Of a stretch of 64,000 nucleotides of DNA, positions 781-38,622 are shown piece after piece. Position 1 is the stretch's first letter; each line of letters starts with the position of its first letter. The DNA lies in assembly GCF_004765785.1 (NCBI RefSeq), contig NZ_SBIT01000009.1, positions 1-64,000 of the forward strand, read 5' to 3'. The position numbers and the translations under genes were made by a program. The notes beneath the pieces are model-generated. The model searched no databases. It was given only the letters and a program-made list of their open reading frames with translations, and had not been told where the DNA came from. Source of the DNA: Halorussus ruber. GTDB taxonomy: Archaea; Halobacteriota; Halobacteria; Halobacteriales; Haladaptataceae.

Positions 781-939
781 GAAGCTAGCTTCAGGCTTGA
801 GCATAGCCGTCTACTGCCCAGTACCACAACCGCAGGCCACGTCCTCCCCAACCGATTGCGGTCCTCGGCCACGGGCCTGCGGTCCTCATCCCTCGCGCGG
901 TTCGGCGTGACACGGAGGTCACGCCAGCGCGCGCCGGAC
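781..939 (+). repeat. Structured repeat family B, copy B1
   Basis: This is the first of four copies of a second dispersed element. It begins with the palindrome GAAGCTAGCTTC (781-792) and runs through a conserved core containing GTCCTCCCCAACC (841-853) and CCTCGCGCGG. It ends in a hairpin, GGCGTGAC pairing with GTCACGCC, followed by AGCGCGCGCCGG. The arms of that hairpin change sequence between copies but stay complementary. Together with A1 it fills the 510-base gap before the BolA gene. Confidence 0.75.
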
Positions 940-4186: not shown

Positions 4187-5128
4187 TCAAGTCTCCCCGG
4201 CAACTCCCTTTGCGAACTGTTCGCCGAACAGGACGTACACCAGCAGGGTCGGCAGGGCCGCGACGAACGCGCCCGCCATCTGGGTGTTGAACGATTCCAC
4301 GATACCGCCAGTCAGACTGTTGAGCGCAATCGTGACCGGTGCCGCCGCGCCTCCTCCGGACGGGAGGATGACCAGCGCGAACAGCAGGTCGTTCCAGATT
4401 TGAGTGAACTGATAGATGAGCGTGACCGCGAAAATCGGCCGCGAGAGCGGCAGGACGATGTTGCGGTAGATGCTGAACACGCTCGCACCGTCGAGTCGGG
4501 CGGCCTCTATCATCTCGTCCGAGAGCGTCTGGTAGTACGACCGGAACAGCAGGAAGGTGATGGGAATCCCGTACGCGACGTGAGTCACGATGAGGTTGAT
4601 GATGCTGGCGTAATGCTCGTGCATCATCGGGAGACCCCACAGGAAGCTCAGCAGTTCCTGCGTGTTCACGATGGCGTAGAGCCGCGAGAGGGGCACCAGC
4701 ACCGCCTGATACGGGATGAAGATGCCCGCCACGAACAGCGCGACCAGCGCCGTCTGGTACTTCCAGTCGATGGTCGTCAGCCCGTAGGCCGCGATGGACC
4801 CCAGTCCCGCCGACAGGACGGTCGCCGGAACCGCCAGCAGGAGGCTGTTGACGAGCGCGTTGCTCATCTCGCTGAACGCGATTTCCCACGGTTCGAAGGT
4901 GAATCCGTCTGCAACCGGCGGGAGGAACGGCACGGTCCGGTTGAACGCGTCGGTCGTCTTGAACGCGGTCATCAGCCCCGCTTCCAGCGGCGCGAGGTAG
5001 AAGCCCACCAGACCGAGGAGAATCGCGTAGAGCGCGACCCTCGTTCGGTCGGCGTCTCTAATCGTCTGTTCGATTCGCTCTCGTCTGGTGTGGTCGTCCG
5101 GGTTCGGACTGGCTGGCGGACTGCTCAT
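4187..5128 (-). CDS. Carbohydrate ABC transporter permease (MalG type)
   Basis: This 313-residue inner-membrane permease has six predicted membrane segments. The first is near residues 32-50. The cytoplasmic EAA loop at about residues 208-231 (EAARLDGASVFSIYRNIVLP) docks the ATPase. The long periplasmic-side loop between the first two segments is as in MalG. The start overlaps the stop of the upstream permease as ATGA (5125-5128), so translation of the two subunits is probably coupled and stoichiometric. The 46-base gap to the ATPase keeps it in the same operon. Confidence 0.92.
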   Translation of the reverse strand: MSSPPASPNPDDHTRRERIEQTIRDADRTRVALYAILLGLVGFYLAPLEAGLMTAFKTTDAFNRTVPFLPPVADGFTFEPWEIAFSEMSNALVNSLLLAVPATVLSAGLGSIAAYGLTTIDWKYQTALVALFVAGIFIPYQAVLVPLSRLYAIVNTQELLSFLWGLPMMHEHYASIINLIVTHVAYGIPITFLLFRSYYQTLSDEMIEAARLDGASVFSIYRNIVLPLSRPIFAVTLIYQFTQIWNDLLFALVILPSGGGAAAPVTIALNSLTGGIVESFNTQMAGAFVAALPTLLVYVLFGEQFAKGVAGET

Positions 5129-6195
5129 AGTTCACCTCGTCGGTATTCGCTGTAGAGGTACGGCGCGACCACCGCCAGCGCCATGCCGAATAGCACGATG
5201 GCGATGGCCGACCCGTAGGCCCAGTTGTTCGACCCGAACGCCTCGCGGAACATCATCGTGGCGAGGATGTCGGCGGCCGGGCCGGGGTTGTTGCCGAACA
5301 TCACGTAGAGGAAGTCGAAGGCCTTCAGCGCGAACACCATCAGCACCACCGCGGCGCTCATGGTCGAGGCGCGAAGCTGGGGCAGGATGACCCGCCAGTA
5401 CATCTTCGCGGTACTCGCGCCGTCTACCTTCGCGGCCTCGTAGTGAGCGGTCGGAATCGCTCGAAGCCCCGCGAGGTACACCACCATCGCGTAGCCCGAG
5501 AACTGCCAGATGAGCGCGAAGATGACCGCCGCCAGCTTGGTGTCGGGGTTCGAAATCCACTGCAAGGTCAGGAAGTCGAGTCCCAACTGGCGGAGCGTGA
5601 CGTTTATCATCCCGATTTGGGGGTTGTACATCCACGCCCAGAACTTCGCGGTCACGACGAACGAGAGGCTCATCGGCAGGAGGTAGATAGTTCTGAGGGT
5701 GTTCTCGAACCGAATCTCTTGGTCCACCAGAATGGCCAACAGCAGGCCAAAGAGCAGGCAGACCGCGGTGAACGCCACCAGCAGGACGAGCGTGTTCTGG
5801 GCCGCGGTCCAGAACGACGGGTCCGAGAGCGCCCGGCGGTACATCTCCAGGTCGAACTCCGAAACCGTGTACTCCGGCAGGAGCAGGCCCTCGAAGTCCG
5901 TCAGCGAGATGACGAGGTTCCACCCGATTGCCCCGTAGACGAAAAAGCCCATCAGCAGGAAGGGCGGGAGCCAGAACGGAATCGACTGGACGAAGTCGCT
6001 CGACAGTAGCGACTGCCACCGGCCGGTCTCGGTCGGGGTCTCCTCGGCGGTGGCTACCCCACCGTCAGAGCGAAGCTCTGACGAACCTCGCAGACGGTCG
6101 GTCTGCTCGCTACCATCCGCGCGAAGCTCCCGGTCCCCGCTGTCGGCCCCGCGTCTCGGAGAGAGCCGTCGGAGTACGTCTCTGAGTCGTTGCAT
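5125..6195 (-). CDS. Carbohydrate ABC transporter permease (MalF type)
   Basis: This 356-residue permease has about six membrane segments, the first near residues 70-98, and an EAA loop from about residue 252 (EAAKVDGASTAKMYWRVILP). It pairs with the MalG-type permease. The first 65 residues form an unusual hydrophilic, Arg/Asp/Ser-rich extension. At DNA level this stretch is largely made of short perfect palindromes, including a 25-base hairpin sequence (6063-6087) that also occurs inside repeat B4. The extension is probably disordered and non-essential. It is 26 bases from the binding-protein gene. Confidence 0.9.
   Translation of the reverse strand: MQRLRDVLRRLSPRRGADSGDRELRADGSEQTDRLRGSSELRSDGGVATAEETPTETGRWQSLLSSDFVQSIPFWLPPFLLMGFFVYGAIGWNLVISLTDFEGLLLPEYTVSEFDLEMYRRALSDPSFWTAAQNTLVLLVAFTAVCLLFGLLLAILVDQEIRFENTLRTIYLLPMSLSFVVTAKFWAWMYNPQIGMINVTLRQLGLDFLTLQWISNPDTKLAAVIFALIWQFSGYAMVVYLAGLRAIPTAHYEAAKVDGASTAKMYWRVILPQLRASTMSAAVVLMVFALKAFDFLYVMFGNNPGPAADILATMMFREAFGSNNWAYGSAIAIVLFGMALAVVAPYLYSEYRRGEL
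6063..6087. repeat. 25-base palindromic repeat embedded in the permease gene
   Basis: This 25-base sequence contains a perfect hairpin, GTCAGAG-cgaa(g)-CTCTGAC, and is identical to bases 23328-23352 inside repeat copy B4. Here it is translated in frame as part of the permease N-terminal extension. A second small palindrome (GCAGAC/GTCTGC) follows directly. Confidence 0.7.
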
Positions 6196-19757: not shown

Positions 19758-19817
19758 GGCGGAGACGAAGCCAAAGGTGATTTTCTGACGAAGCGTGCGC
19801 TACTTTATTTTCTCTGC

Positions 19818-19966
19818 GTCGGCGCGCGAGCGGGCGCGTAGTTCTGCGCGCCCGCCGCGCGAGGGACGACTGAGCGACTGTAAGGAGCGAGGGAGGAGGT
19901 TGGGGAGGCGTGAGGCCCGCGGTAGCGGTGCGGCAGACTCCTGTGTTCAAGCCTGTAGCTAGCTCT
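19818..19966 (-). repeat. Structured repeat family B, copy B2
   Basis: This minus-strand copy lies between the sugE stop and the convergent PAP2 gene. It includes the TAGCTAGCT start, CAGGCTTGAACACAGGAGTCTGCCGCACCGC-like region, CCTCCCCAACCTCC core and CTCGCGCG box. The terminal hairpin here is GCGGGCGCG/CGCGCCCGC. That differs completely from B1 but is still perfectly paired. It fills most of the 300-base gap. Confidence 0.72.
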
Positions 19967-20057
19967 ACTGAACTCCCCGAGTTTCCGACTCGTCCCGTAA
20001 GTCCCGGCGAACGAGCCACAAAATCTCAGCAAGGAACTGCGAACACCACTCGTCCTC

Positions 20058-22418: not shown

Positions 22419-22540
22419 TTGCTCGGAGAGTTGGCACTCGGTGGTGAAAAAGAGCGCGTTCTCCTCGCGTCCGTGATTTTCTGTTCGGGCACGCTGGTTC
22501 GGTTTCTTTGCTCCGGCATGCGCTGATTCGGCTTTTCCAC

Positions 22541-22717
22541 TCCGGCGCGCGCTGGCGTGGCGTCTTGTCGCCACGCCATCGTCGCGCGAGGGACGAGTAG
22601 CGCAGGGAGGAGCGACCGAAGGGAGCGACGACTGAGCAACGCAGGAGGTTGGGGAGGACGAGGTGCGGTTGCGGTGCTGTGCGGTAACTCATAGGAGTCG
22701 GAAGTAGCTAGCTTCTC
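22541..22717 (-). repeat. Structured repeat family B, copy B3
   Basis: On the minus strand this copy starts with GAAGCTAGCTAC (near 22713). It contains ACCGCAACCGCACCTCGTCC, then CTCCCCAACCTCC and CTCGCGCG. It ends in the hairpin TGGCGTGGCG/CGCCACGCCA (10 bp) plus AGCGCGCGCCGG. It points away from B4, and an AT-richer ORF lies between their heads. The remaining bases to 22852 are AT-rich and hold no gene I can support. Confidence 0.75.
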
Positions 22718-22852
22718 CGAACAGAAGTCAAGGACGTGACGACTGCTTTTCTCGGAAACGATAGGAAGGCCGAAGAAGCTCACTCCAGTCTCGCATTTAT
22801 AATATGCATGGGGGTTTTATCGTCTTAGACCACTTCCTATCCGTAATTTACT

Positions 22853-23271: not shown

Positions 23272-23481
23272 GGAAGCTAGCTTCAGGCTTGAACACAGGA
23301 GCCTACCGCACCGCGACCGCACAGCGCCGTCAGAGCGAAGCTCTGACGAACCGTGACTCGCTTCGCTCGTCACGACACCGCACCTCGTCCTCCCCAACCT
23401 CCTCGCTCACTCCCTGCGGTCGTTCGCTCGTCCCTCGCGCGACGACGGCGCGAGATGAACTCGCGCCAGCGCGCGCCGAGA
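23272..23481 (+). repeat. Structured repeat family B, copy B4
   Basis: This is the longest copy. It starts GGGAAGCTAGCTTCAGGCTT and carries the core CGTCCTCCCCAACCTCCTCG. Two extra hairpins are inserted in the middle: GTCAGAG/CTCTGAC (23329-23347) and GTGACTCG/CGTCAC-type (about 23353-23374). The terminal hairpin is GGCGCGAG/CTCGCGCC followed by AGCGCGCGCCG. The first inserted hairpin is shared base for base with the permease gene at 6063-6087. Confidence 0.75.
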
Positions 23482-28827: not shown

Positions 28828-28874
28828 GTGGTCAGTTCTTCCGGTTCGGGGCGTGGTCAGTTCTTCCGGTTCGG
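28828..28874. repeat. 25-base tandem duplication at a gene end
   Basis: The 22-base sequence beginning GTGGTCAGTTCTTCCGG occurs at 28828 and again at 28853 with period 25. The second copy contains the stop codon region of the downstream gene. It is a recent slippage-type duplication, neutral for the protein. Confidence 0.6.
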
Positions 28875-29432
28875 CGTCCACGGTTCCGTCAGCTCTGCGG
28901 GCAGGCAGCCGCAGATGCGGAGGAGATGGACGGTGAGACCGACTTGCACCGCGATGCCCGCGCCCAACAGTCCGTAGTTCCACGCCGGGTCGCCGGGGTA
29001 CATCAGCCCGAGCGCGACCGCCCGCTCGGAGACGGGCCAGAACGGTTCGGCGGGGTTGTCCGCGACGGGAATCATCAGCACGTCCGCGAGGAGGTGGCTG
29101 GCGAGTCCGGCGAGCGTCCCACCGGCCCCGAGCGCGAACGCCGAGCGCGGCCGGAAGGCGGGCACGCTGTCGATTCGGCGCGCGAGCCAGCGGACGTTGA
29201 CCGAGACGAACGCGAACGCGAGGCCGACGACGAGCGTCGCCGAGAGCGCGAACAGCACGGTGTGGGGGCCGCCGTGGTGGTGCGAGAAGGGAATCTTGCC
29301 GTCTACGTCCGGCAGGAGCGCGGTGGCGAGCGCCAGCGCCACGACCGGCAGGTATCGGCGCTTCCGGTCGAGCAGGACCGCGGCGGGCGCGACCAACAGC
29401 AGGGCCATGCCGACGTGGCCCAGCGGAAACAT
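28857..29432 (-). CDS. YdjM-type membrane metal-dependent hydrolase
   Basis: This 191-residue inner-membrane protein is of the LexA-regulated YdjM family. It begins MFPLGHVGMALLLVAPAAVL, where the early His is conserved. It has LLPDVDGKIPFSHHHGGPHT near residue 39, a metal-site signature with Asp and clustered His. It also has LASHLLADVLMIPVADNP near residue 110 with a further His and Asp. About five membrane segments are predicted. Family members are predicted hydrolases of unknown substrate. The start at 29432 follows the haloarchaeal norm, while the extension upstream is polar. Confidence 0.82.
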   Translation of the reverse strand: MFPLGHVGMALLLVAPAAVLLDRKRRYLPVVALALATALLPDVDGKIPFSHHHGGPHTVLFALSATLVVGLAFAFVSVNVRWLARRIDSVPAFRPRSAFALGAGGTLAGLASHLLADVLMIPVADNPAEPFWPVSERAVALGLMYPGDPAWNYGLLGAGIAVQVGLTVHLLRICGCLPAELTEPWTPNRKN

Positions 29433-29537: not shown

Positions 29538-29780
29538 GGCGGACTGAAAGGGCGAGCGGGGTTCGCGGTTGTCGTGAGCGAAGTGAACGACTGCTCGACG
29601 GACGCGGTTTGTCCGCCGGTGGCCGGAGGCCCGTGGTCGGCTCAGCGACCCCTATCCGAGGCGGGCGGTGTCTCGCTGAACGAAGTGAGGCGAGGCTCGG
29701 AAGACGTGGTTTGTCTTCCGGCGCGGAGAGCCGAGGATATGTCGCTGAGCGACCGCGAACCGCGCGAGGGCTTTCGAGGT
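29538..29780 (+). repeat. Structured repeat family A, copy A5 (long form)
   Basis: This is the longest copy, 243 bases. P1 is TGAAAG (29544-29549) with CTTTCG (29769-29774). P2 is GGTTCGCG/CGCGAACC, P3 CTCAGCGAC/GTCGCTGAG (9 bp), loop CCCT/AT and ATCC/GGAT, as in A1. It differs by extra hairpins in the junction arm (GTCGTGAGCGAAGTGAACGAC and GGACGCGGTTTGTCC) and in the apical arm. Two CGCTCGGTG-type motifs precede it. It lies upstream of the VOC epimerase stop and points toward copy A6 across that gene. Confidence 0.82.
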
Positions 29781-29835: not shown

Positions 29836-30321
29836 TCACGACTCGGACAGTCGCTTCCCGCCGATGTAGAGGCGCTCGGGGTCGGGTCGCTCGTCGGCGA
29901 ACGACTCGCGGTACTCCATCAGTTGCCAGAGGACGCCGGTCGGGTTGCGCGGCGAGACGAACGCCTCGGACCACTCGTCGTAGTCGGTCCGGTCCACCAC
30001 GCGAATCTCCTCGGCTTCGAGGGTTGCGATGGCGGCGTCCATGTCGGCGACTTCGAGCGTGACGTGGTGCATCCCCGGCCCGTTCTCGGCGAGGAAGTCC
30101 GTCAGGAAGGAGTCTTCGCCCTCGACGGGTTCGATGAGTTCGACGCGGGAGGCGTCCCCGAGGAGGTAGTAGGCCCACCGGAACGCGCCGGTCGGGTCCT
30201 CCTCGTGGACGAGTTTTTCGGCCCCGAGGAGGGTCAGCAGGGGTTCGGCCTCGTCCACGGAGTGGACGGCGACGCCGACGTGGTCCACGCGGATTTCGGG
30301 GGTTTCTGTCGAGTCCGTCAT
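29836..30321 (-). CDS. mce: VOC-family protein, probable methylmalonyl-CoA epimerase
   Basis: This 161-residue protein consists of two beta-alpha-beta-beta-beta units of the glyoxalase/VOC fold. It begins IRVDHVGVAVHSVDEAEPLL with metal ligand His14. The second half starts GPGMHHVTLEVADMDAAIAT with a further His, and the last ligand is the Glu of WQLMEY near residue 138. Spacing and the opening D-H-V/I-G-V/I-A-V match methylmalonyl-CoA epimerases, which link propionyl-CoA breakdown to succinyl-CoA. Related VOC proteins cannot be excluded without alignment. The gene is flanked by inverted repeats A5 and A6. Confidence 0.8.
   Translation of the reverse strand: MTDSTETPEIRVDHVGVAVHSVDEAEPLLTLLGAEKLVHEEDPTGAFRWAYYLLGDASRVELIEPVEGEDSFLTDFLAENGPGMHHVTLEVADMDAAIATLEAEEIRVVDRTDYDEWSEAFVSPRNPTGVLWQLMEYRESFADERPDPERLYIGGKRLSES

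Positions 30322-38062: not shown

Positions 38063-38622
<560 letters not shown>

Follow-up and report, generated by a model that had tools for sequence, protein, structure and literature searches.

Coding palindromic repeats are best known from Rickettsia, an obligate intracellular bacterium in which they are hard to test. The Rickettsia palindromic elements (RPE) measure ~105-150 bp and form long stem-loops with terminal inverted repeats, according to the excerpted descriptions in PMC2229807 and PMC10969869. Coding palindromic repeats of Wolbachia, and those of the archaeon M. jannaschii (Suyama 2005), are cited in the excerpts of PMC2229807. REP elements of the GTAG- and CGTC-tagged types carry unpaired tetranucleotide tags and are high-copy hairpins that lie for the most part downstream of genes, often two together and sometimes intragenic (PMC3733652, in the extracts available). 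In Haloquadratum, PATE palindromes resemble IS605 ends, and SMR-A (~110 bp, with terminal inverted repeats) lies within PATEs (PMC3119063, likewise in extract).

The element described here, designated H, was found in the window (the whole 64-kb stretch of Halorussus DNA that was analysed) and in related genomes. Like RPE, it occurs both in intergenic DNA and, in frame, within conserved protein genes that have orthologs without it; unlike RPE, it measures 45-57 bp in genes, has two hairpins, occurs in Halobacteria and is used in one frame and one orientation. H works like RPE, yet it is a different family, set apart by the RPE descriptions. With the Wolbachia repeats, as far as their citation describes them, H shares the occurrence of short palindromes both in intergenic stretches and, in frame, within protein genes; with the M. 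jannaschii repeats, as cited, it shares archaeal palindromes fused into protein genes, a likeness by description and not by sequence. We estimate at roughly 0.8 the probability that a segment of a sugar permease gene in the window derives from H, a haloarchaeal non-coding dual-hairpin repeat that stands chiefly 3' of genes and has at times entered reading frames. With a family that spans a class of free-living archaea, some of them genetically tractable, movement, strand and frame choice, and peptide function become testable.

The host gene (5125..6195, minus strand) encodes an ABC sugar-type permease (BPD_transp_1) of 356 amino acids. A first-pass annotation of the window had reported that 25 bases of this gene (6063-6087) recur at 23328-23352, in frame in the permease and with the hairpin GTCAGAG/CTCTGAC. 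The identity was reproduced and reaches one base further leftwards, giving 26 bases (6062-6087 and 23327-23352); the frame was correct, and each copy folds into a 9-bp stem without mismatch, closed by a GAA loop (hairpin 1 of the permease unit: 6063..6083, plus strand, equal to 23328-23348). In 30 first-order Markov versions of the window no 25-mer repeat arose (longest repeat: 21). The other exact repeats of 25-29 bp in the window are located at 695/29751, 17602/30597, 43129/43945 and 30716/30743 and in tandem at 38189; those at 695/29751 and 17602/30597 are dispersed and measure 27 and 29 bp. The genome search that the annotation had proposed returned 12 occurrences of GTCAGAG-N5-CTCTGAC in the own genome (that of the window) and 0 for the reversed control; together with the Markov versions, these occurrences rule out a lone chance repeat. 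The same pattern was present in 34 of 59 genomes searched (own genome included), with 0 for the reversed control in every one. In copies with up to 3 mismatches, both arms were altered jointly (e.g. GGCAGAG/CTCTGCC, GTCGGAG/CTCCGAC).

The 25-mer had been taken for a small palindromic element: an element it is, with a unit that is a dual hairpin of ~51 bp and not the 25-mer. The architecture of H, shared by the majority of copies, is ACC-hairpin1-GAGCC-hairpin2-GAC, with hairpin 2 centred on TCGCTTCGCTC and a linker between the hairpins of the form GA(G/A)CC. For the covariation analysis, 11 of 51 loci were removed before modelling (8 non-canonical, the permease copy and 2 with altered hairpin 2), as was 1 exact duplicate; 27 of 39 distinct copies were used, the other 12 being dropped with hairpin 2 out of register; hairpin 2 played no part in finding copies, though it served in dropping those 12. 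Across the 27 copies, 98.6% of stem cells were paired and 54 changes were two-sided vs 3 one-sided (shuffled mean for two-sided changes: 14.2). In hairpin 2, all five pairs varied two-sidedly and 96.3% of cells were paired. G-U cells were nearly absent from the stems, which suggests selection or copying at the level of DNA. The leading CGnC is paired inside hairpin 1 (columns 3-6 with 20-23, 27/27 copies); unlike in REP elements, CGTC lies within the stem and H has no unpaired terminal CGTC or GTAG tag. The ends ACC and GAC form no inverted repeat. As an observation apart from canonical H, three genomes (L021, L023, L030) have GTCAGAG/CTCTGAC arms flanked by two near-identical stretches that resemble gene ends.

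Copies were then scored with a covariance model of H (R1, the E-values of which are rough). The canonical copy in the window is intergenic (23326..23376, plus strand, 51 bp, both hairpins; 69.2 bits, genome E 1.0e-12), and two 53-bp variants stand as a tandem pair on the minus strand: 29568..29620 (44.5 bits, intergenic, between the called genes 28857-29432 and 29836-30321) and 29670..29722 (40.7 bits, also intergenic). The canonical copy is enclosed in a composite intergenic repeat of ~200 bp, B (GAAGCTAGCTTCAGGCTTGA ... AGCGCGCGCCGG), at 23273..23479 on the plus strand (the B4 of the annotation). The further B copies in the window lie at 781-935 (plus), 19800-19985 (minus) and 22535-22745 (minus), the ends of all four being approximate, and many more are present in the genome. 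Within B, H is found at either of two sites, and some B copies are without it. Like the PATE and SMR repeats, as excerpted, H is a transposase-free haloarchaeal repeat, and it sits inside B as SMR-A sits inside PATEs.

On one reading, H would be a remnant of the PATE kind, moved by the IS200/IS605 (HUH) transposases of its own genome: the genome holds seven Y1_Tnp and 23 TnpB-type matches, and H, like PATEs in the extracts of PMC3119063, has hairpins without evident terminal inverted repeats. At 27 own-genome Y1_Tnp/TnpB loci, however, R1 gave nothing at E<0.2, and we regard such a remnant as unlikely. In the same comparison H differs from REP/RAYT systems, since no Y1 transposase gene was flanked by it at those loci; from PATEs, in matching none of the IS605-type elements of the own genome; and from MITEs, in having no transposon-related terminal inverted repeats, as judged against the 27 loci. 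Variants with a GGCAAG loop had resembled one IS and were considered as IS-end copies; their flanks differ and the TnpA/TnpB loci are without H, and the candidate was rejected.

R1 matched the own genome at least 132 times at E<=1 and at least 115 times at E<=0.01, these being lower bounds because 150 of 5762 candidates were scored; in other genomes 150 or 30 candidates were scored per genome, with the same consequence for the counts. Among the relatives, at least 25 of 28 genomes matched at E<=0.001, with from at least 15 to at least 124 copies across 17 Halorussus genomes. Class-wide, at least 149 of 194 genomes and at least 56 of 65 genera matched at E<=1e-4. In a control of 100 kb from two GC-rich bacterial plasmids (Ruegeria and Cupriavidus), the best score was 10 bits. 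A search of annotated plasmids matched 3 records, 2 of them haloarchaeal, with no listed gene beneath a match. Literature searches of open-licence papers turned up no account of H in haloarchaea.

The position of H relative to genes was recorded over 917,706 own-genome bases (with overlaps, and partly chosen around matches), with gene calls from our own codon-score gene caller. The 125 R1 rows at E<=0.01 were collapsed by hand to 113 copies: 101 intergenic, 5 within or in contact with coding cores, and 7, the permease among them, in upstream ORF extensions. The other six extensions had been candidates for coding copies; those of their peptides that were examined are basic and unlikely, and these six matches were therefore treated as intergenic. 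A DnaK-like match (L076) was rejected as an in-gene copy, as it touches the 3' end of the gene only. Intergenic copies lay in convergent gaps 33 times vs 12 times in divergent gaps, against a background of 16.3 kb vs 29.6 kb (p 3e-7). The nearest gene end was a 3' end for 68 of 98 intergenic copies, and those 68 were antisense to the gene in 51 cases vs 17 (p 4e-5). H thereby resembles REP elements: high-copy, mostly extragenic (101/113) and 3' of genes (68/98). In another haloarchaeal family, one copy directly adjoins the 3' end of a tRNA-Asp gene (L038:1498-1548).

Such a distribution would suit a functional RNA or transcript-end element, with the intragenic matches fortuitous or secondary, and both the preference for convergent gaps and the antisense position at gene 3' ends speak for it. 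Stems almost free of G-U pairs, the fact that some orthologous genes have the whole unit and others do not, and in-gene scores of up to 57 bits stand against it, and as an account of the family it is improbable; a role at transcript ends would in any case be compatible with mobility, the two not being exclusive. A known RNA family was ruled out by an Rfam search of window positions 1-25000 (E<=1), which returned nothing relevant and a single unrelated sub-threshold match.

We return to the reading of the permease segment as an inserted H copy. The unit spans 51 nt (6061..6111, plus strand, antisense to the permease; bounds from ortholog comparison), comprises 17 codons and encodes SEQTDRLRGSSELRSDG. 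It scores 38.1 bits with R1 (genome-wide E 2.2e-5). Hairpin 1 (8 of 8 pairs) and the linker are present, and the second half is shortened and non-canonical: a second small hairpin, GCAGAC/GTCTGC (6090..6106, plus strand), is not the canonical hairpin 2 and is missing the loop TCGCTTCGCTC. The annotation had placed the repeat in a 65-residue N-terminal extension with further small palindromes; that extension as a whole does not stem from the element. The tail ahead of the first membrane helix has ~70 residues; orthologs across the class also have a tail, and this ancestral tail, with its conserved residues, probably received a unit of 17 residues. Named orthologs of the permease are headed by Halorussus aquaticus, H. 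salinisoli and H. marinus. Of the two findings that the annotation had said would together refute its idea, one was obtained, an extension with conserved residues in orthologs, and the other was not, as the genome-wide repeat exists. Among 17 aligned proteins, the tail motif [VL]R[AST]DGG has an invariant last Gly, and its Asp and first Gly exceed 90%; the motif corresponds to residues 41-46 of P0001 and is conserved across permease tails of Halobacteria. The added residues, ~17 and mostly hydrophilic, are probably floppy, and the annotation's expectation of disorder was weakly supported: mean AlphaFold pLDDT was 32-41 for residues 11-70 in a model that is poor as a whole (58.5).

Extra 17-codon units between [VL]R[AST]DGG and its downstream neighbours were counted in the permease orthologs as follows: one in G000, G004, G014 and G013, two in G010, G016 and G015, and none in G002, G007, G008 and G017, nor in the outgroups G018, G020 and G022 (G009 was ambiguous). 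In H coordinates, the last unit retained 8/8 hairpin 1 pairs in G000 and G010, 7/8 in G016 and G015, 6/8 in G004, 5/8 in G014 and 2/8 in G013, and the unfilled alleles had 2/8 (G002) or 3/8 (G007, G008, G017). The GA(A/G)CC linker was retained in G000, G004, G015 and G010. The unfilled G007 allele already holds the 11-mer GAGCTTCGCTC. Because the permease tree has no resolution inside Halorussus, some species may have lost the unit, and a gain is argued by outgroups only (G017, G018, G020, G022). In G021, presumably a Haladaptatus, a full 57-nt H lies in frame in the N-terminal tail of the permease (42 bits).

The units might alternatively be ordinary in-frame tandem duplications of the LRxDGG stretch, with SExxSD codons that are inherently near-palindromic. 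Every unit has 17 codons and several are tandem; [VL]R[AST]DGG is old and conserved, and the G013 unit is not H-like, pairing at only 2/8 positions, so that simple tandem duplication also seems, from these sequences, to occur in the tail. As the origin of the permease unit we nevertheless hold duplication to be quite unlikely: the rare codons of the unit, TCA (1.4%), TCT (3.2%) and CTT (3.9%), match the repeat exactly, and when the peptide was fixed and codons were drawn by usage, 26 of 27 positions agreed with one or other of 61 repeat ends in 5 of 200,000 draws (p ~2.5e-5). In addition, 6 of 7 filled alleles keep 5-8 of 8 pairs, four have the linker, and full H copies are present in other genes.

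Besides the permease, three coding copies were found in the own genome, in genes with orthologs that are without H: an FAD-binding oxidoreductase (48 nt), a cysteine synthase (48 nt) and a biotin protein ligase (57 nt). A fourth, 45 nt long and in frame in Pus10 (27.6 bits), is a weaker candidate. The cysteine synthase site was read at 19 of 25 loci: 5 were filled (G000, G014, G010, G015 and G012, the last twice), 2 intermediate and 12 empty. For the oxidoreductase (18 of 26 loci read), 1 was filled (G000), 16 were short and 1 was intermediate (G009); for the biotin ligase (23 of 26), 5 had H at >=31 bits (G000, G016, G013, G011, G014), 12 were short and 6 intermediate. R1 scoring covered 22 of 80 ortholog loci. 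All 12 full-length in-gene copies at >=31 bits, which are not all independent, have lengths divisible by 3 (48, 51 or 57 nt); for the G000 and G010 permease units the R1 alignment is local only, and the 51-nt length comes from ortholog comparison. The idea that a palindromic element can enter reading frames was thus borne out, by a covarying genome-wide family, by these three further genes and by the complete H in a permease from a further genus.

In all in-gene copies examined, H runs antisense to the gene, and all translated copies share one frame, rcH-0, with the peptide V..SEA..GSS(D/E)..SDG. Averaged over 98 intergenic copies, this frame comes to +0.62 net acidic residues, the other five frames being net basic (-0.87 to -4.12). 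Protein-level convergence, in which selection for acidic Ser/Asp/Glu peptides in halophile loops would yield the DNA palindrome as a side effect, would account for the use of the sole net acidic frame, and permease tails do differ widely in sequence; the retention of hairpin 2 and the linker in the DNA of the G013 and G016 biotin ligases (56.7 and 57.2 bits), and rare permease codons that match the repeat, make it highly improbable.

In genes, H was seen only at lengths divisible by 3, antisense and in the net-acidic frame, at sites that resemble permissive loops or tails; under the reading of H as a repeat inserted into genes, the direction of change would be the gain of an H unit. H may pass by way of single-stranded or cruciform DNA on which an enzyme acts. 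Stems with hardly any G-U pairs, the strand bias and the hairpins that have decayed in several coding copies fit a process at the DNA level that would be followed by neutral erosion of coding hairpins. Because of this decay, the copies in genes are most probably passengers that their hosts tolerate. More tentatively, H may be an ancient class-wide repeat that is still spreading and enters DNA with a strand bias, its one acidic and flexible frame making it a recurrent DNA-level source of acidic linkers and tails; we find this possible, though doubtful. Some variable acidic loops of halophiles may be inserted repeat DNA and not adaptations, and gene starts and alignments near H units can mislead.

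Flanking sequences that might mark a target-site duplication differ between the genes with in-gene copies: GTCCTC on both sides in the cysteine synthase, VLV codons in the G013 biotin ligase and GGT only in the oxidoreductase. In the biotin ligase loop after WPNDVLV, H copies of differing sequence occur in several Halorussus species (L316, L318, L324, L330, L335), as if the loop were a recurrent insertion site.
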